Of a DNA stretch of 42,634 nucleotides, positions 7,435 through 27,857 are shown one piece after another. The notes beneath the pieces were generated by a model. The model was not told where the DNA came from. It saw nothing but the letters and a program-made list of their open reading frames with translations, and searched no databases. The translations under genes and the position numbers were made by a program. Every line of letters starts with the position of its first letter. The first letter of the stretch is position 1. The stretch is from Nitrososphaerota archaeon. Its GTDB lineage: Archaea > Thermoproteota > Nitrososphaeria_A > Caldarchaeales > JAVZCJ01. Where the stretch lies: positions 36,435-79,068 of the forward strand of contig JAWAZL010000005.1 in assembly GCA_038817485.1 (NCBI GenBank), read 5' to 3'.

Positions 7435-7589
7435 TGATTTATAATTATTTCTTATGCATCAAACTGTTTTTAAAAGTATTTATAAGATTTTTAATGCTAT
7501 TCTTAGTGTTCTAAATAATGGACATCTCGTTCTAAAGCATACGATTAAATTCAACCATTGTTATATTCTTAATAAAAAAGTGGTTAAAA

Positions 7590-8402
7590 ATGTTTGAAAA
7601 TAAAAAAGTAGTTTTAAACATTGTTTTAGCAGCTATTGCAATAGCTCTATTAGGTATTAATATAGTAATGATTATGCCTATATATTCAACTTTAGCATCT
7701 CTATCATATGCTAATGAAAAGAATAATGAAGATATTATAAAATCAACTATTTTGGAGGGGGCTGCTACAATAGAAGAAAAAACTATAACAGTAAGTGGAA
7801 CTGGGACTGCTGCTAGTAAACCTGAAATTGCAATAGTATATTTAAGCGTAATTACTAGAAGTGAGTTAGCTTCTGAGGCTCAAAGAATTAATGCTGAAAA
7901 AATGAATAGTGCAATAAATGCTTTAAAAAATGCTGGAATAAAAGAAGAACAAATAGAAACTACAAGATATAGTTTACAACCAATATATGAATATGATGAA
8001 AAGCTTAGAAGGTCTGTATTAGTTGGCTATCAATGTGTAAATACTATAAAAGTAACTTTAGAAGAATTGAATAAAGTTGGTAAAATAATAGATACAGCTG
8101 TTTTAGCTGGAGTTAATGAAGTTTCTTCAATAACATTTTCTTTAAAAGAAGAAACTATTGAAAAGCTTAAACTTGAAGCCTTAACTAAAGCTGTTGAAGA
8201 TGCGAAAGTGAAAGCTGAAACTGTTGCTAAAGCTGCAGGAATAAAGATTATAGGTCCAAAGAAAATAGATATTGGAGTATATGTCCCTCCTATAAGGTAT
8301 GAGTTAGTGAAAGAAGCTATGGTAGTACCTGAAACACCTATAATAGCTCCAGAAGAACTTACTGTATCTATGAATGTCAATATAGTTTATGAATTTGAGT
8401 AA
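7590..8402 (+). CDS. Membrane-anchored SIMPL-domain (DUF541) protein
   Basis: 270 residues. An N-terminal hydrophobic helix (about 8-35) acts as signal anchor. The rest is the SIMPL/DUF541 domain: it begins with 'KTITVSGTGTAASKPEIA', continues with 'GIKEEQIETTRYSLQPIYEYD' and 'GYQCVNTIKVTL', and ends with 'EALTKAVEDAKVKAETVAKAAG'. These are the strong landmarks of the family that includes E. coli YggE, linked to oxidative stress defence by an unknown mechanism. The protein should face outside the membrane. The gene is alone and converges on the two small AsnC-domain genes. Confidence 0.88.
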   Translation: MFENKKVVLNIVLAAIAIALLGINIVMIMPIYSTLASLSYANEKNNEDIIKSTILEGAATIEEKTITVSGTGTAASKPEIAIVYLSVITRSELASEAQRINAEKMNSAINALKNAGIKEEQIETTRYSLQPIYEYDEKLRRSVLVGYQCVNTIKVTLEELNKVGKIIDTAVLAGVNEVSSITFSLKEETIEKLKLEALTKAVEDAKVKAETVAKAAGIKIIGPKKIDIGVYVPPIRYELVKEAMVVPETPIIAPEELTVSMNVNIVYEFE

Positions 8403-8513
8403 TCCATCTTTTTTATTTTTTATTTAAAATAGAGAAAATGATTATTAAAAAATCTATATGAGTTTCTTCCGAAAAATAAATAAAAAAAGAGGATATTATT
8501 TAATTATTGAATT

Positions 8514-8741
8514 CTATTGGGCAGTTTCCATAAGCGATTCTGTGCTTTTAATTCCTGAAATTGCATTTATTTTAGATATTACTTTGCTTAAAGCTTCAAA
8601 AGTTGAAGCTTCTGCAAAAGCAACAATATCATATCTTCCAAATACAAAATAAGCACTTTTAACTTCAGGAAACTTTTTAACACTTTCTAAAACTTCATTG
8701 CCTTTCCCTGGAAGAATCCTAATTAAAATACAAGACATCAT
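8514..8741 (-). CDS. Stand-alone Lrp/AsnC ligand-binding (RAM) domain, copy 2
   Basis: About 75 residues made of one alpha-beta sandwich domain (beta-alpha-beta-beta-alpha-beta), with no DNA-binding helix-turn-helix. Landmarks are 'ILIRILPGKGNEVLESV', 'PEVKSAYFVFGRYDIVAFAE' and a final 'ISGIKSTESLM', matching the AsnC_trans_reg domain that binds small effectors and forms octamers. The start is best placed at ATG 8739-8741, because AAGAGGTG (8751-8758) sits nine bases before it; an upstream GTG at 8753 overlaps that ribosome site. It lies directly downstream of a paralogue, so they form an operon. Confidence 0.8.
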   Translation of the reverse strand: MMSCILIRILPGKGNEVLESVKKFPEVKSAYFVFGRYDIVAFAEASTFEALSKVISKINAISGIKSTESLMETAQ

Positions 8742-8756
8742 TCTTTTTAACACCTC

Positions 8757-8981
8757 TTAAAAACTAATAAGAGTTTCAGTAGCTCTTACTCCTTCTAATC
8801 CATGAAGCTTTAATGAGATTTCACCAAGTGCTTTAAGGTCAGGGGCTTCTACTTCAATAACCCCGTCCCACCTTCCATGGACACCAAAGGCTTTTTTCAC
8901 ACCTTTAATCTTTCTAATCTCTGAGATTACATCTTTATATTTCCCAGCTTCACAGCAAATTAAAATACATGCTACTACCAT
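8757..8981 (-). CDS. Stand-alone Lrp/AsnC ligand-binding (RAM) domain, copy 1
   Basis: 74 residues with the same fold as the following gene: 'ACILICCEAGKYKDVISEI', 'KGVKKAFGVHGRWDGVIEVE' and 'LEGVRATETLI'. It has no helix-turn-helix. Such free RAM domains are common in archaea and are thought to sense amino acids or to modulate full-length Lrp proteins. The two copies are clearly homologous but diverged, so they probably form a hetero-oligomer or bind different ligands. Stop of this gene and start of the next are 15 bases apart (ATG 8741). Confidence 0.8.
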   Translation of the reverse strand: MVVACILICCEAGKYKDVISEIRKIKGVKKAFGVHGRWDGVIEVEAPDLKALGEISLKLHGLEGVRATETLISF

Positions 8982-17227: not shown

Positions 17228-18283
17228 ATGGATCATAAAGAAAGAGTTTTAACTGCAATAAATCTAGAAGAGCCTGATCGCATTCCGCTTTCTCCATCAG
17301 GTTTTCATAAAATAGTTTTAGAAAAACTATTCAAACATTTTAATGTGAATGAATTGATTGAACTTTATAAGAAACTAGATTTGGATGCTATTATTGTTTC
17401 AATAGCTGATGGAATGATAACTTATCCTAAAAATTTTACTCCAAAAAACTTCAAGATGGATCATTAATTAATGAATGGAATGTAAGATATATTATTCCAC
17501 CGGATAGAGACCATATTTTTATAGAGCACCCAATAAAGAATTGGGAAGATTTTGATAAGTATTCTTTTCCTGACCCTTATGAGTATTATAGATTTATTGA
17601 AATAGAAGAAATAGTAAATAAATATAGCGAAGAGTATGCTATAGTTGCTTCTATAGATTTTGGCTTATTTGAAAAAGCATGCTTATTACGTGGTATTTCA
17701 TCTTTCCTTATGGATTTATATAAAAATCCAAATTTTGTTAAAAAACTACTTAATAAATTAGTAGAATTTGATAGCAAATTAATTGATGAAGTATGCAAAT
17801 ATGATATAGATATATTCTTTGGTAGTGATGATTTAGGAACACAACATTCATTATTTTTTCCTCCAGAAATATTTAGGAAATTCTTTAAAGAAAGATGGAG
17901 AAAATTGCTTAAAATTCCAAGAAAAAATACCAATCATGTTTCACTCAGATGGCAATATTGAAAAAATAATTCCAGACCTTATCGATATAGGTGTAAACAT
18001 TCTTAATCCAGTTCAACCAAGAGCTTTAAATCCAAAAATTGTCAAAGAAAAATATGGTGAAAAGCTTGCTCAATGGGGAACAATAGATATTCAATATACT
18101 CTTCCATTTGGAACAATTAATGATATAGTTAAAGAAGTATTGACTAGAATTAAAACTGTTGGCTATGATGGTGGTTTAATTCTTGCCCCATCACACACAA
18201 TTCTTCCAGATGTGCCAATTGAAAATTATTTAGCTTTTGTTAAATTTGCAAAGAAATATGGTATTTATCCCATAAGAACATAA
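17228..18283 (+). pseudogene. URO-D family methyltransferase (corrinoid type), broken by two frameshifts
   Basis: Together three segments encode a complete ~351-residue uroporphyrinogen-decarboxylase-family protein of the kind that moves methyl groups to or from corrinoid proteins. Segment 1 (17228-17467) has 'MDHKERVLTAINLEEPDRIP', the usual N-terminus. The frame then shifts within A6 at 17443-17448; the next segment reads GSLINEWNVRY and later 'LGTQHSLFFPPEIFRKFF'. A second shift in A6 at 17922-17927 restores the original frame for 'IPIMFHSDGNIEKIIPDLID' to 'PSHTILPDVPIENYLAFV'. The key segment is H-S-D, as in the gene at 22322. The reading frames are otherwise intact, so the break is recent, a sequencing error in homopolymers, or slippage. 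Confidence 0.8.
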
Positions 18284-18295
18284 AAAAGTCGATTT

Positions 18296-21671: not shown

Positions 21672-22325
21672 TCATAATCTTAAAAGCTCTCTTACTTTTC
21701 CTACAGCTTTAACAGCATCTGGAGCATATCCATCTGCTCCTATTTTTTTAGCCCATTCTTCAGTAACAGGTGCTCCTCCTACAATTACTTTTACATTTTT
21801 TCTTAATCCAGTTCTCTCTAATTCTTCTATAACTCTTTTTTGTTCTAATAATGTAGTTGTAAGAAGTGCTGATAAGCCTAAAACATCAGGTTTTAATTCT
21901 TTAATTTTTTCAATTATTTCTTTTGCTGGAACATCCACGCCCAAATCTATTATTTCAAATCCATTAATCCAAAGCATAAGAGCTACTAAATTTTTTCCTA
22001 TATCATGTATATCTCCTTCAACTGTAGCTAGCATAACTTTTCCAAGCTTTTTTCTTTCTTCCTTTCTTTTTTCCAATTCAGGTTTAATTATTTCTACAGC
22101 TCTTTTCATGATTTCAGCACCCATAACAAGTTCTGGTAAAAAAGCTTCTCCATTTTCATACATATTTCCTAATTTTCTTATACCATTTGAAAGCCCATCT
22201 TCTATTATTTTTATAGGATTCAATCCCTGTTCTAAAGCTCTTTTAGTTAATAGTAAAGTTTTTTCTATGTCCATTGATAATAAAGCTTCTTGTATTTCTT
22301 TTAATATATCATTTTGCATTATCAC
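21672..22325 (-). CDS. Corrinoid (B12-binding) methyl-carrier protein
   Basis: 217 residues, the normal two-domain design of MtaC/MtbC-type proteins. Residues 1-88 form the helical cap ('EDGLSNGIRKLGNMYENGEA', 'LPELVMGAEIMKRAVEII'). Residues 95-217 are the Rossmann-like B12 domain with the complete motif D105-x-H107-x2-G110 ('VEGDIHDIGKN'), 'VLGLSALLTTTL' (S152) and 'KVIVGGAPVTEEWA'. The cobalt cofactor accepts a methyl group from one methyltransferase and gives it to another. Its ATG region overlaps the end of the URO-D methyltransferase gene by 4 bases, so the two are translationally coupled. Confidence 0.92.
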   Translation of the reverse strand: MIMQNDILKEIQEALLSMDIEKTLLLTKRALEQGLNPIKIIEDGLSNGIRKLGNMYENGEAFLPELVMGAEIMKRAVEIIKPELEKRKEERKKLGKVMLATVEGDIHDIGKNLVALMLWINGFEIIDLGVDVPAKEIIEKIKELKPDVLGLSALLTTTLLEQKRVIEELERTGLRKNVKVIVGGAPVTEEWAKKIGADGYAPDAVKAVGKVRELLRL

Positions 22326-23455
22326 TCACCTTTTTTAATTGGATATTTACCATATTTTCTTCCTGTTTCATATAAAGCTTTTGCATTCTCTATAGGTATA
22401 GCATCATGTATTTCACTACTTGATCCTAAAATATAACCACTGCCTGGAGCAGCTATAGATAATGTTTCTTTTACTTTTTCAATTATTTCTTTTATTGTTC
22501 CAAATGGTAAAAGATGGCTACAGTCTATATGACCAATTAAAGCGACATGATTTCCATATTTTTCTTTAACTTCATCTATCTTCATTCCTGCTGTTGGATC
22601 TATTGGGTGCAATGCATCTATTTTTAAATCAAAAACTAGTTTATCTAATATTGGATTAAGGTTCCCATCACTATGAAATATCATTTTTATATTTTTATTA
22701 AAAAGAAAATTTCTTATGCGTTTAATTCTTGGAAACCAATTTTCATTAAGCCATTTAGGAGAAAACATTAACCCTTTATCAAAAGCTATGTCTTCTCCTA
22801 AGAATATTACATCGCCCATATTTTCTTCTACCCAAAGCTTAAGTCTAATCATTATCCATTTTTCGAAAATATCTAAAAGTTTGTTTACTATATTTTTTGC
22901 CATAAACATAGCTTGAAAAAATAAATCATAACCTGTAAACATATAAGCTTCAGTTAATGGTCCTTCAAAATTTCCTACAAATACTATACCATGCTTCTTA
23001 TATCCTTCAATAGTTTTTTTATGGTATGGAATAAACCATTCTGCTATTTTACTTTCATCTGGTTCTGGAGGAAGTTTATTACTAAGTTCATCTAAATTTT
23101 TAAAAGGTCTTTTATCAATCCATGTAGTTCCTGCTTTTGTTTTAATAGCCCAACCTTCTTTTTCAATTCCTAAAATATCTATCCATTCAAAAAATTTATT
23201 TTTAAACCACATGAAATCTGTAAACCACCAATAATCTCTAGTTATATCTATTCCTAAATATTTGTATGCTCTTGCATTTGTTTCAAGAGGATCGTTTGTT
23301 TTAACAATTTTTCTAATTTTTTCATTATTTACTATATCCATAATTGGAACTCTATCACTTTCTTCAAGATTTAAAGTTGCTAAGAATCTTTCATTATTTT
23401 TCTCCCATTCTTTTTGTCCATTCATAACCATACACTTTTTAAAAACATTAATCAT
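22322..23455 (-). CDS. URO-D family methyltransferase, H-S-D type
   Basis: Up to 377 residues, a TIM barrel of the uroporphyrinogen-decarboxylase superfamily that in archaea serves corrinoid methyl transfer. Landmarks: 'LNLEESDRVPIMD', 'GEDIAFDKGLMFSPKW', 'IKMIFHSDGNLNPILDKL' (H261-S262-D263) and 'GYILGSSSEIHDAIPIEN'. MtaA/MtbA-type enzymes that methylate coenzyme M have H-x-C here and a Cys in the last loop; both are replaced (D263, Ser 345-347). So this is probably the substrate-side enzyme, or uses a different metal site. The start is uncertain: AAATATATAA (23461-23470) predicts a transcript start near 23440, which favours ATG at 23431 or 23425 over 23455. Confidence 0.85.
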   Translation of the reverse strand: MINVFKKCMVMNGQKEWEKNNERFLATLNLEESDRVPIMDIVNNEKIRKIVKTNDPLETNARAYKYLGIDITRDYWWFTDFMWFKNKFFEWIDILGIEKEGWAIKTKAGTTWIDKRPFKNLDELSNKLPPEPDESKIAEWFIPYHKKTIEGYKKHGIVFVGNFEGPLTEAYMFTGYDLFFQAMFMAKNIVNKLLDIFEKWIMIRLKLWVEENMGDVIFLGEDIAFDKGLMFSPKWLNENWFPRIKRIRNFLFNKNIKMIFHSDGNLNPILDKLVFDLKIDALHPIDPTAGMKIDEVKEKYGNHVALIGHIDCSHLLPFGTIKEIIEKVKETLSIAAPGSGYILGSSSEIHDAIPIENAKALYETGRKYGKYPIKKGE

Positions 23456-23540
23456 TTAACTTATATATTTATTTCATTCAATTATTAAAAATAAGAATGT
23501 TTAAATATTTCTCATGGTAAATAATCGTAGGTAAATATTG
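23456..23540. promoter_or_regulatory. Divergent promoter region of the two methyltransferase units
   Basis: About 85 bases separate the two opposite units. Leftward, the minus-strand box AAATATATAA lies at 23461-23470. Rightward, TTTAAATATTT at 23500-23510 lies ~30 bases before the start of the corrinoid gene, which implies a very short leader. Such a compact arrangement suggests co-regulation. No clear operator palindrome is seen. Confidence 0.5.
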
Positions 23541-24170
23541 ATGGAAAATAGGATATATAAACTAGTTATGGAATTTAAACCATTTGAAGTAGAGAAAGAA
23601 ATTAAACATCTTCTTTCAATTGGGGTTGATCCTAATGAAATTCTTAATAGCTTAAGAAAAGCAATGTTTGATGCATGTGAAAAATATGGTAAGGAATTTG
23701 CACTCCCACAACTTTCTGCAATAATGGCATCCTTTTATATGGGTTATGAAATTTTAAAAGATAAAATTAAAAAAATGGATAAAGGCAGAATTTTAATAGG
23801 AACATTAGGTTCTATGCATTATATAGGGAAAGATATTATAAAAGTATTGTATATAGCAGATGGTTTTGAAGTTAAAGATTTAGGCGAGAATTTAATGGCA
23901 GAAGATTTTATAAAAGGTATAAAAGATTTTAAACCTCACTTAGTTGGGCTTTCAGTATTTTTAACAAATGCAATATTTGAAATAGAGAAAATAATTAAAT
24001 TCTTAAAAGAAAATAATTTAAGAGATAAAGTTAAGGTTATAATAGGAGGAGTGCAAGGTAATCCATATATAGCTAAAAAATTTGAATTAGATGGTTGGGC
24101 TCATGATCCTAAAACTGCTTTAGAAATTGCAAATAAATTAGTTAAGGAGGTACGTGAAAAATATGGTTGA
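23541..24170 (+). CDS. Corrinoid-protein homologue with altered DxHxxG motif
   Basis: 209 residues with the same cap plus B12-domain plan as the carrier at 21672, but diverged. The cobalamin loop reads 'GTLGSMHYIGKDIIKVLYIA': His 94 and Gly 97 are kept (numbering from the TTG one codon upstream), while the Asp is Ser 92 and the loop is one residue shorter than the usual GTVEGDIHDIG. 'HLVGLSVFLTNAIFEIEK' and 'KVIIGGVQGNPYIAKKFELD' complete the domain. The Asp normally tunes protonation of the histidine cobalt ligand, so this protein may hold B12 differently. ATG 23541 is used. The next gene overlaps it by a few bases, behind AAGGAGG (24144-24150). Confidence 0.85.
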   Translation: MENRIYKLVMEFKPFEVEKEIKHLLSIGVDPNEILNSLRKAMFDACEKYGKEFALPQLSAIMASFYMGYEILKDKIKKMDKGRILIGTLGSMHYIGKDIIKVLYIADGFEVKDLGENLMAEDFIKGIKDFKPHLVGLSVFLTNAIFEIEKIIKFLKENNLRDKVKVIIGGVQGNPYIAKKFELDGWAHDPKTALEIANKLVKEVREKYG

Positions 24171-25281
24171 AATTACAGGTCTTGAAAGAGCTTTAATTTA
24201 CTTAAGTGGAGAAAAACCAGATAAAATGCCAATATGGTTAGAATCTGTTTATTTAGCTTGGAAATATTCTGGCGTACCAAGTTTAAGGGAATATATTCAC
24301 GATGGAAAAGCAATAGCAAGAGGACATATAGCTGTAGCTGAAAAATTTAGAGTTGATATTACAGGGGTTAATACAGATCAATGGGTTATGTATGAAATAT
24401 TAGGTGCTGAAGTTGAAATTTTAGATCATGTTGTACAAGCAAAGATTCAACCATGGCGCTATAAGCCAGATCGTAGTATTTATGATAGATTTATTGAAAA
24501 AGTAGAAAGAATTGAAAAGAACATAGAAGAATTTGATCCTAGAAAATGTAAAAGGGCTCAAGCAATATTTGAAGCATGGAAAATTGTTGCAGAAAAAATT
24601 GGAAAAAAAGTTCTTTTAAGACAAGGAATACTTGGACCTGCTGCAACTTTAGCTTTAACGATTGGAATGACCGAAGTAATGAGAGATGTTATGATATTTC
24701 CAGATTTACTTCCTACTTTAACAAGAATAGTTAGAGGGCCTTTAATGGAATGGACAGTTGATGTAGCATATAAAATGGTAGAAGCAATCAATTTTACAAA
24801 TTTTTGTATGGGATTTAGTGGATATGATAAATCTATTTTAAGCCCAGATTTAAGAGAATGGTTAGCTGCATTAGATTTAGAATATTTAAATAAAGTTAGA
24901 TCAAGAATAGGTAAAGATGTTCCTATTACAACTCATGTTTGTAGTTGGGATCCAGATTTAGATTTTATATATGAAAAATTTGGAAAACCTAAACTTATAA
25001 ATGAATTGCAATTTTATGCTCCAGGATCAACTTATCCATTAGAAAAAGCTGTTGAAAAATTTGGTGATAAAATTCCACTTTGTGCTGGAATTGATCATCT
25101 TGGACCACTTTTTTCTGGAACGCCTAATGATGTTGAATTAATGGTAAAAAATTCGATAGAATTAGGAAAAAATTGCATATCTTTTGCACTTGGCCCTGGA
25201 TGTGGATTGAGCCCAAATACTCCAGAAGAAAATTTACTTAAAATTTCAGAAATAAGAGATAAATACGGAAGATATAAATGA
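24163..25281 (+). CDS. URO-D family methyltransferase, H-x-C...C zinc type (MtaA/MtbA-like)
   Basis: 372 residues from ATG 24163 (a GTG at 24154 is possible; the Shine-Dalgarno AAGGAGG is 3 bases from GTG and 12 from ATG). The zinc ligands of thiol-methylating enzymes are all visible: 'PITTHVCSWDPDLD' (H261 and C263, GTG numbering) and 'FALGPGCGLSPNTPEENLL' (C350), with 'CAGIDHLGPLFSGTP' between. In MtaA/MtbA this zinc activates coenzyme M as methyl acceptor. The natural acceptor in this organism is unknown, since no methyl-coenzyme M reductase gene is in the window. Overlaps the corrinoid-protein gene and is followed after 15 bases by a transporter. Confidence 0.9.
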   Translation: MVEITGLERALIYLSGEKPDKMPIWLESVYLAWKYSGVPSLREYIHDGKAIARGHIAVAEKFRVDITGVNTDQWVMYEILGAEVEILDHVVQAKIQPWRYKPDRSIYDRFIEKVERIEKNIEEFDPRKCKRAQAIFEAWKIVAEKIGKKVLLRQGILGPAATLALTIGMTEVMRDVMIFPDLLPTLTRIVRGPLMEWTVDVAYKMVEAINFTNFCMGFSGYDKSILSPDLREWLAALDLEYLNKVRSRIGKDVPITTHVCSWDPDLDFIYEKFGKPKLINELQFYAPGSTYPLEKAVEKFGDKIPLCAGIDHLGPLFSGTPNDVELMVKNSIELGKNCISFALGPGCGLSPNTPEENLLKISEIRDKYGRYK

Positions 25282-25296
25282 AGAAAGTGATCTTAT

Positions 25297-26634
25297 TTGC
25301 CTATTATAGGTAGATTTAGTGGAAAAGCTGGAAAAATAGCGTATGCAACAGGTGCTTTTGGAGAATCTTTAATATTTGCTATCATAGGAACATATTTAAT
25401 ATATTTTTATAGCGAAATTGTTCTTCTTGATCCAGTTTTAATTGGAATAGGATTTATGGCAACTTATGGTATTTGGAATGCAATAAATGATGTAATTGCA
25501 GGATATATTTCTGATAAAACAAGAACTAAATGGGGAAGAAGAATACCTTATGTTTCTATATTTTCACCAATAATGATTTTATTATTTATAATGATATGGT
25601 CTCCTCCAGTTGGTGGAAAGCCTTTATCCAATCCCTTCGATCCTTGTATTTTCACATTCTTTATTATTGTTATTTTTATTTTCGAATTTGTTTATACTCT
25701 TGTTGATGTAGGATGGAATGCATTATTTCCTGAAATGTATAGAGATATTACAGATAGAAGTGAAGTTGCAGTATATAGACAAATTTTTGCAACAATTGGC
25801 ATTATAATAACAATAATACTTACTCCTCAATTGATAACATATTTTACAGAGAATTTTGGTACTTTTCAAGGATGGACTTTTGTAGGGATAGTAGTAAGTT
25901 TAATGGGCGGAATATCATTCTTATTATCTCTTCTTGGAAGTAAAGAGAAAGAAATAACTTCAGTAAAATCTACACTTCCTATTAAAGAATATTTTAAAAT
26001 TACTTTTACAAATAAGTCTTTTTTAACAGCAGCTTTTCTAATATTAACAACAAGCTGGATATGGAGTGTTCTTGAAGCAATGATACCATTTATTGTCCAA
26101 CATTTCCTTGGAGGAAAAACTAGCGATATAACAATTGTAGGCGCACCAATGATAATTTTCCCAATACTATTTTATCCAATTTGGAGAAAAATTTGTATAC
26201 GATATGGTTCTAGATTTACATTAATTCTTTCTACAATATTAATGGCTTCTGGACTATTAGTACTTGCATTTTGGGCAGATTCCATAATAAAAGCTATTAT
26301 ATTAACAGCTTTCTTTGGTGCCATGAATAGTGGTGTGCAAATTACTAGAGAACTCTTAATACCAGATGTTATAGATGAAGATGCAAATAGAACAGGTTTA
26401 AGAAGAGAAGGAATATACTATGGTGCACGTACATTTATTGATAGATTTGCTTTAGCTCTTACAGGTGCAAGTACAGCTTTCATTTTTGGATTAAGTGGAT
26501 ATGTACCTGGAGCAGTACAACCTAGCGAAGTAATATGGAACATGCGTATTGGTTTAGCTCTTGTAATAATAATAGCTTTAACTGTATTCTTAATTGCGGC
26601 AAAATATTATCCTCTTGGAAAGAAGAAGATATAA
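25297..26634 (+). CDS. GPH-family (MelB-like) sugar/cation symporter
   Basis: 445 residues with 12 predicted helices. 'NAINDVIAGYISDKTRTKWG' plus 'RRIPYV' is the hallmark loop 2-3 of the glycoside-pentoside-hexuronide:cation symporter family, and 'IPDVIDEDANRTGLRREGIY' matches the loop 10-11 signature (D..D...GxRREG). Members import sugars or glycosides with Na+ or H+. The start is TTG 25297 with GTGATC seven bases upstream. It follows the methyltransferase gene with 15 bases in between, so it most likely imports the compound that the methyltransferases act on. Confidence 0.88.
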   Translation: MPIIGRFSGKAGKIAYATGAFGESLIFAIIGTYLIYFYSEIVLLDPVLIGIGFMATYGIWNAINDVIAGYISDKTRTKWGRRIPYVSIFSPIMILLFIMIWSPPVGGKPLSNPFDPCIFTFFIIVIFIFEFVYTLVDVGWNALFPEMYRDITDRSEVAVYRQIFATIGIIITIILTPQLITYFTENFGTFQGWTFVGIVVSLMGGISFLLSLLGSKEKEITSVKSTLPIKEYFKITFTNKSFLTAAFLILTTSWIWSVLEAMIPFIVQHFLGGKTSDITIVGAPMIIFPILFYPIWRKICIRYGSRFTLILSTILMASGLLVLAFWADSIIKAIILTAFFGAMNSGVQITRELLIPDVIDEDANRTGLRREGIYYGARTFIDRFALALTGASTAFIFGLSGYVPGAVQPSEVIWNMRIGLALVIIIALTVFLIAAKYYPLGKKKI

Positions 26635-26660: not shown

Positions 26661-27857
26661 TCATAAATTTTCAGATTTTATTAAATTGCTTTCTATTGCA
26701 AGAGTAATTGTTACTGCTGCTGTCCATCCAAAATTATAAAGACCTGTTAAACCTGGCTTACCATCTTCATAATAGTATTCAGCAAAAACTTTTGTTTTAT
26801 TAATTAAATTAAACCATTTTGTTGCTAATTTTTTAGCAATTTCTTTATAGCCATAATTTAATAAGCCTTTAAAAACAAAATAAGTTGTAGGAGCCCATAT
26901 TGGGCCTCTCCAATAATATGGGTCTAGAGAATATAACCAAGATGGTTGAGGAGACATGTATTTTTCATCATCAAAAGCTATTGTCGGTATTCCATATTTT
27001 CCCCAAAATTCTTTTGGAGAAATAAGATGAAAAATGAGTCGAGAAGCATTTTCATTACTTAATATTTTAGAAAATAATGGCATAAATGCTTGTATAGATT
27101 TAACTTTAATAATATTTCCTTTCCAATCAATAGGATAATAAAAACTTTCTTTTTCATACCACATATATTTATTAATAAGTGAAGCTTTTTTATGATATTC
27201 ATATTGAAAATTCTTTGCATCATCTTCTATTCCTAATTTATTAGCAATTTCAAATAAAGCTTCAGCACTTGCAGCAAGAACATTATTAAGTAAAAGGTCT
27301 TCAATTGGTATATAATAAAATCCATTTCTTTTTAAAGTTTTTCCATTAGTAAAATCATATAAAGCATGATTGTCCATACCAGTTGAGCATATAGCCCAAT
27401 ATGCCATCATTGGGCTCTCTTCTCTTGCACCAGTGAATGGACTTACAAGTCCATTAATTGAATCTATTGGATCACCATAATTATTCCACCATTCATAAAA
27501 TTTCTTTAATCTAGGATACCAATTTTTTAAATTTTTAAAATCTTTTGCTACATTTGAATAATAGTTTACTGCATATATTATAATAGGAGGTTGGCTTCTT
27601 AAATCTTGATTGTATACTTCTATAGGAGCATTTGGAATCATGCCATCCTCTTTTTGCAAAGAAAGAAGAGCTTCAATATTTTCTTTAGCAAGTAATGGAT
27701 CGATATGTGATAAAGCTATTACATGAAAGGCAGTATCCCAACAATATGGTATAGGATAGCCATTAAGATGTGGAACAACAATTTTATGTTTTCCATATTC
27801 TTTTAAATTTTCATATAATATTTCTTTAGCTTTTATTAATAACCGATCTAATTTCAA
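26661..27857 (-). CDS. GH63-like alpha-glucosidase / glycoside hydrolase
   Basis: 398 residues forming an (alpha/alpha)6 barrel. 'PYCWDTAFHVIALSHIDPLL' (W40-D41) starts the barrel, 'CSTGMDNHALYD' has the likely general acid D162, and the later 'FAEYYYEDGKPGLTG' has the candidate base Glu. 'DPYYWRGPIWAPTTYFVF' is another family landmark. These belong to the GH63/GH37 group, which hydrolyses alpha-glucosidic bonds such as mannosylglycerate, trehalose or glucosylglycerate in archaea and bacteria. No signal peptide, so it acts in the cytoplasm. It converges on the sugar symporter, which could bring in its substrate. Confidence 0.8.
   Translation of the reverse strand: MKLDRLLIKAKEILYENLKEYGKHKIVVPHLNGYPIPYCWDTAFHVIALSHIDPLLAKENIEALLSLQKEDGMIPNAPIEVYNQDLRSQPPIIIYAVNYYSNVAKDFKNLKNWYPRLKKFYEWWNNYGDPIDSINGLVSPFTGAREESPMMAYWAICSTGMDNHALYDFTNGKTLKRNGFYYIPIEDLLLNNVLAASAEALFEIANKLGIEDDAKNFQYEYHKKASLINKYMWYEKESFYYPIDWKGNIIKVKSIQAFMPLFSKILSNENASRLIFHLISPKEFWGKYGIPTIAFDDEKYMSPQPSWLYSLDPYYWRGPIWAPTTYFVFKGLLNYGYKEIAKKLATKWFNLINKTKVFAEYYYEDGKPGLTGLYNFGWTAAVTITLAIESNLIKSENL

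Follow-up and report, generated by a model that had tools for sequence, protein, structure and literature searches.

Pairs made of a methyltransferase of the URO-D superfamily and a small corrinoid protein are known from several systems. In MtsAB, one URO-D protein works with one corrinoid protein, and MtsA is bifunctional, as it also passes the methyl group on to a thiol. The MtoABCD and MtvABC systems of Methermicoccus, Archaeoglobus and Moorella hold a URO-D-superfamily MT1 enzyme, a small corrinoid protein and an MFS transporter in one cluster, and the Mto cluster of A. fulgidus is laid out as transporter, methyltransferase and corrinoid protein (PMC8359953). In non-methanogens, type 1 mlp clusters encode an S/Se-methyltransferase, an SCMT-like URO-D protein with a His-Cys-Cys site, together with a corrinoid protein (PMC10418091), and the chloromethane system CdmBCA consists of a URO-D MT1 enzyme, a corrinoid protein and a separate MT2 enzyme (PMC13222342). 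Here we describe a corrinoid locus in a stretch of 42,634 nucleotides (the window) from a Nitrososphaerota archaeon, whose genome G000 is a 1.44 Mb archaeal metagenome-assembled genome (MAG), 98% complete, in which the window spans G000:C5:36435-79068. Five open reading frames form two divergent units, at the positions and with the Pfam/NCBIfam families expected from an earlier reading made from the letters without database searches (the sequence-only reading): two on the minus strand to the left, encoding a canonical corrinoid protein (LcorP) and a methyltransferase-like URO-D protein (LuroD), and three on the plus strand to the right, encoding an altered corrinoid protein (RcorP), a zinc-type URO-D methyltransferase (RuroD) and a GPH-family symporter. 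We favour, with a probability of roughly 55%, the reading that these are two back-to-back corrinoid modules, a self-contained uptake-plus-demethylation trio on the right and an O-demethylase-like pair on the left.

The right-hand trio and its recurrence

RcorP (23538..24170, plus strand, likely start 23541) was characterized by Pfam and NCBIfam profiles, alignment, AlphaFold2 and a tree. Its Pfam match is to the B12-binding domain only, and the alignment bears out the alteration that the sequence-only reading had noticed: GSMHYIGKD stands in place of GDxHDIGKN, with His94 and the GK kept and both aspartates replaced by Ser and Tyr (SxHY in place of DxHD), and the motif of the orthologues in other families is GSIHYIGKD. 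Among the 49 distinct corrinoid proteins collected, 42 carry DxHD, two fall outside the pattern, and the five with SxHY are all RcorP orthologues. Judged by the retained motif, His94 would be the lower cobalt ligand. The nearest folds to the AlphaFold2 model (mean predicted local distance difference test score, pLDDT, 92) are, over the full length, MttC, the B12 domain of MetH and MtaC, and the cap and B12 fold are thus predicted to be kept.

RuroD (24154..25281, plus strand), examined with Pfam/NCBIfam profiles, a ligand alignment, AlphaFold2 and a tree, is of the zinc type (H-x-C...C) as first read, and its MtaA-type zinc ligands H261, C263 and C350 are invariant across the aligned orthologues. 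It matches the URO-D domain PF01208 with 73 bits and the MtaA/MtbA/MtsA-type NCBIfam models with 54, 50, 41 and 31 bits, which do not reach the cut-offs of 235-600. For neither URO-D protein of the locus was the hemE model of NCBIfam listed at E<=0.001, and the best models of both are of the MtaA/CmuA type, far under cut-off; a true HemE identity is ruled out by these profiles, and the two proteins stay set apart from the heme-pathway decarboxylases. A PF01208 fold outside the HemE model, with a small corrinoid protein encoded next to it, places RuroD, and likewise LuroD, among the corrinoid methyltransferases of the URO-D superfamily. Its AlphaFold2 model (mean pLDDT 90) has as nearest fold the M. 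mazei methylcobalamin:coenzyme M methyltransferase MtaA (4ay7/4ay8), followed by HemE and then MetE.

The third gene of the trio (25297..26634, plus strand) encodes a cation symporter of the GPH family (MFS_2), as had been read from the letters, with 212 bits to PF13347, over cut-off, and 203 bits to TIGR00792, slightly under the 231-bit cut-off. In the window the RcorP and RuroD genes overlap, and the symporter gene starts 15 bp after RuroD.

The genomes compared are MAGs, 80-98% complete. In the sister species G001 the five genes stand in the same divergent order, with a glycoside hydrolase gene and HerA/NurA genes alongside, the symporter gene again adjoining the glycoside hydrolase. Amino-acid identity between the two species is 93-98% over the five proteins, and the ratios of non-synonymous to synonymous substitution rates (dN/dS) of 0.27 for LcorP, 0.12 for LuroD, 0.10 for RcorP, 0.07 for RuroD and 0.11 for the symporter indicate that all five genes are under purifying selection. 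A search with RcorP through 398 genomes of the phylum gave two matches far over a background of ~40% identity, in G390 and G279, which belong to two other families; in both, RcorP is followed by the RuroD orthologue and then by a GPH gene. A profile search added G399, where one contig carries both genes and, after them, the first part of a GPH gene. By BLAST, the proteins of these three genomes are 60-68% (RuroD) and 52-57% (RcorP) identical to those of the window, and the left pair does not stand beside the trio in any of the three. The five-gene order was thus found, yet only in the window's own genus, while the right-hand trio by itself recurs in two further archaeal families.

The trees agree with this pattern. 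RcorP and RuroD each form a five-member clade (support 100/100 and 100, respectively), each on a stem of ~1.9 changes per site and RuroD on the MtaA-like side of its tree, and the branching inside the two clades is identical; full support, long stems and matching branching argue that RcorP and RuroD are an old, co-inherited unit. Searches of 44 genomes from the window's class and 81 from that of G279 found no further RuroD, and scans with RuroD alone and with a four-member profile found no relatives in viral contigs; a profile search of 46 genomes with LuroD relatives was also empty, a result that is uninformative for want of a positive control. Past the trio of G279, at L210:12063-14302 (G279:C55), there are a CBM9-like protein and a further URO-D protein with the H-x-C...C pattern.

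Compared with MtsA/MtsB and MtaA/MtbA, the trio shares the His-Cys-Cys zinc site, the nearest fold (4ay7) and, with MtsAB, the combination of one URO-D with one corrinoid protein, but RuroD is only ~21-22% identical and far under the MtaA/MtbA cut-offs, no Mcr was found in the four trio hosts searched for it, the pair is linked to a GPH symporter, and RcorP has lost the Asp of DxH. The type 1 mlp clusters resemble it in the parts named above, whereas the trio has no adjacent Ram/RACE or sulfur-metabolism genes and has instead a sugar-type transporter and an altered corrinoid protein. CdmB works without zinc (PMC13222342), whereas RuroD keeps its three presumed ligands and has no MT2 gene adjacent. 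In the limited collection of papers searched, no account was found of URO-D, corrinoid protein and symporter together, nor of Thermofilales and corrinoid, and RcorP, RuroD and the symporter appear to make up an independent methyl-transfer cassette that had not been named before.

The left pair and the shared promoter region

LcorP (21672..22325, minus strand) combines a B12-binding_2 cap (PF02607) with a B12-binding domain (PF02310), is over the cut-off of TIGR02370 and shows in the alignment the canonical motif GDIHDIGKN (DxHD); with GDxHxxG and its His cobalt ligand it belongs to the DxHxxG class of corrinoid proteins (MtaC/MtbC/MtgC). Its gene overlaps by 4 bp with that of LuroD (22322..23455, minus strand, likely true start 23431), which matches PF01208 with 82 bits. 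In alignments LuroD has H261-S-D263 and then GSSSEIH, with Ser346 at the position of the second MtaA Cys, so that both zinc cysteines are missing and H, D and S stand instead of His-Cys-Cys; the left unit therefore has the motifs first read in it. In the superfamily, a His-Cys-Cys zinc site is characteristic of S-methyltransferases, and carboxylate or non-coordinating replacements of O-methyltransferases (PMC10418091); by this rule LuroD looks O-type and RuroD S-type. By analogy, the pair on the left would be a further module of O-demethylase-like character, of the MtvBC/MtoBC kind.

In its O-type motif LuroD would fit MtoABCD/MtvABC, and an MtrH-like MT2 is present in the window genome. The locus differs from these systems in that it has no adjacent MtoA or activase gene, the lone MtrH being on another contig, in that the nearest relatives of LuroD are of the Armatimonadota type, without corrinoid neighbours, and in that its transporter is of the GPH family and not of the aromatic-acid type. 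In the tree LuroD is placed with Armatimonadota proteins that have the HSD...SSS pattern, and a profile scan of named genomes gave relatives in Armatimonadota, Poribacteria and Brockarchaeota, all without the trio. Separately, the HTD/HSD URO-D proteins of these three groups (L096-L099, L109-L127), which have no corrinoid neighbour, form a large branch of the superfamily that still awaits explanation. In G001 a paralogue of LuroD (47% identity) heads a run with a carbohydrate-type ATP-binding cassette (ABC) transporter (L089:11574-16057, G001:C9), with no corrinoid gene of its own directly adjacent. In the window a further URO-D gene (17228-18286, plus strand) is broken by deletions of 1 and 5 nt near 17442 and 17921; its intact counterpart is a 353-aa gene of the sister species, and the breaks may mark a pseudogene or assembly errors.

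The divergent promoter region (23432..23540, no strand) was delimited by alignment with the sister species and a motif scan. The conserved starts are probably ATG 23431 on the left and ATG 23541 on the right, which makes the shared region ~109 bp long rather than the ~85 bp first estimated. The scan found divergent archaeal TATA-like boxes at 23500-23507 (plus strand) and 23467-23461 (minus strand), each preceding its start by ~30-40 nt; both lie within sequence common to the sister species.

Methyl routes and competing explanations

In the favoured reading, the symporter would import a small methylated compound, the zinc site of RuroD would activate its methyl-bearing sulfur (or other heteroatom), and RuroD would methylate the Co(I) of RcorP, held from below by His94. 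The methyl group might then leave RcorP through RuroD itself to a thiol, in the manner of the bifunctional MtsA/MtsB, or through a second transferase; with the MtrH of the window's genus, tetrahydromethanopterin could be the acceptor. On the left, LuroD would demethylate an O-methyl compound onto LcorP, which MtrH could likewise drain. Genes, motifs, predicted folds, conservation and the independent recurrence of the trio are what was observed, and from them we infer the direction of transfer, the substrate and the acceptor. The agreement between the layout of the trio and that of the A. fulgidus Mto cluster counts in favour of this reading.

Several observations weigh against it. The symporters of the trios are only 32-35% identical across lineages, and that of the window is 56% identical to another GPH protein of its own genome, so that the transporter is linked to the trio by position more than by ancestry; the slot after RuroD appears conserved, and its occupant may have been exchanged. 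Next to the nearest relatives of LuroD, in Armatimonadota and Poribacteria, no corrinoid gene was seen, and the use of a corrinoid by LuroD is therefore argued from the overlapping LcorP gene. Finally, the closest relative of RuroD with a solved structure is MtaA, which works on the acceptor side as an MT2 enzyme, and RuroD could for that reason be an MT2 as well.

The gene content of the hosts bears on the possible acceptors. No gene for MtmB, MttB, MtrH, a corrinoid:tetrahydromethanopterin or corrinoid:tetrahydrofolate methyltransferase, MtoA or an activase adjoins the locus. That MtmB, MttB and MtrH partners are lacking is thus true only of the surroundings of the locus: G000 encodes seven corrinoid proteins, five of them outside the locus, and also one MtrH on another contig, one MtmB homologue and three MttB-like proteins. 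The lone MtrH (L055:9215-10129, G000:C13) is over the cut-offs of the mtrH and MtrH-family subfamily models, and the 19 kb around it contain no corrinoid gene. The MtmB homologue (L054:10007-11383, G000:C18; 365 bits to PF05369) is preceded by a canonical corrinoid gene and by a double energy-coupling factor (ECF) transporter ATPase; it is a single 458-aa frame without in-frame stop and so carries no UAG-coded pyrrolysine. The MttB-like proteins (L047:7852-9309, L051:10136-11590 and 7447-8883; G000:C22, C3) likewise lack in-frame stops; two of the three lie beside corrinoid genes and all three near URO-D genes, and they are possibly MtgB-like enzymes. Mcr (PF02249), to which the sequence-only reading had drawn attention, was not found in G000, G001, G279 and G390, with positive controls, and the window's host, an archaeon of hot-spring type, would accordingly be unable to make methane. 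A search for MtrH found it in G000 and G001 but not in G279, G390, G399 or three of their relatives. Core-MetE (PF01717) was not found in G000, G001, G390 and G399, with positive controls in M. jannaschii and S. acidocaldarius and with MetH and PF02574 outside the search, and gave one weak match in G279; core-MetE was consequently rejected as a general acceptor, having not been found in four of the five trio genomes and being weak in the fifth.

The best surviving alternative, which we consider unlikely, is that both units form one substrate:corrinoid:acceptor relay, as the sequence-only reading had proposed: LuroD would demethylate the substrate onto LcorP, RuroD would act as MT2 towards a thiol (for example homocysteine or coenzyme M), and both units would share the symporter. 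The O-type and S-type metal ligands, the nearness of RuroD to an MT2 enzyme and the back-to-back arrangement kept in both species of the genus would all fit, but in three genomes the trio has no left pair beside it, and the corrinoid protein that belongs to the trio is very unlike LcorP; in G390 (80% complete) RcorP is the sole corrinoid protein detected and RuroD the sole URO-D candidate, and Mcr was not detected. Since elsewhere the trio stands without the left pair, one relay is less likely than two modules, and the earlier proposal is not supported in that form. Quite improbable is a pair resembling methionine synthase, in which RuroD would move the methyl group from methyl-RcorP to homocysteine in archaea without MetE and the imported compound would be the methyl donor. 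The scarcity of PF01717 in the trio genomes speaks for it, as do the fold and zinc chemistry that MetE shares with RuroD and the still open physiological methyl donor of archaeal core-MetE (PMC7005905), but the GPH symporter is a poor fit, and most genomes of the same class are without RuroD, which rules it out as a general methionine synthase. Least probable of all is that the URO-D proteins break down sugars or compatible solutes and that the corrinoid genes are chance neighbours or serve other enzymes, since, for all the HTD/HSD proteins of Brockarchaeota and Armatimonadota without an adjacent corrinoid gene and the G001 paralogue beside a carbohydrate-type transporter, the RcorP and RuroD genes lie side by side in five genomes, have been inherited together and overlap in the window, the LcorP and LuroD genes overlap too, and RuroD lies on the MtaA-like side of its tree.

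Substrate and significance

The compound imported by the trio is probably small, methylated and sugar-like. The hints of a sugar are the GPH family itself, the adjacent glycoside hydrolase, the carbohydrate-type ABC transporter by the LuroD paralogue of G001 and the CBM9-like gene near the trio of G279. The hydrolase (26661..27857, minus strand, convergent to the symporter gene) is of the MGH1/GH63/trehalase-like type, as judged from 171 bits to PF22422 and from synteny. The sugar derivative suggested by the sequence-only reading thus gains some support from context, although it is still something that we infer. A more far-reaching version, possible if rather unlikely, is that the trio is an undescribed methyl-scavenging system of non-methanogenic thermophilic archaea, which would import a methylated sugar or thio-sugar and move its methyl group to a thiol via a corrinoid protein without the Asp-His pair, in cells that showed no Mcr and no clear core-MetE, and MtrH in the window's genus only.

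The locus represents a compact archaeal methyl-transfer cassette outside methanogenesis and acetogenesis, in which the ligand motif of RcorP departs from the textbook DxHxxG rule and several hosts show no obvious methyl acceptor. If the favoured reading is true, it would add a new substrate class for anaerobic demethylation, perhaps methylated sugars or thio-sugars, and would show that corrinoid reactivity can be tuned without the Asp of DxHxxG.

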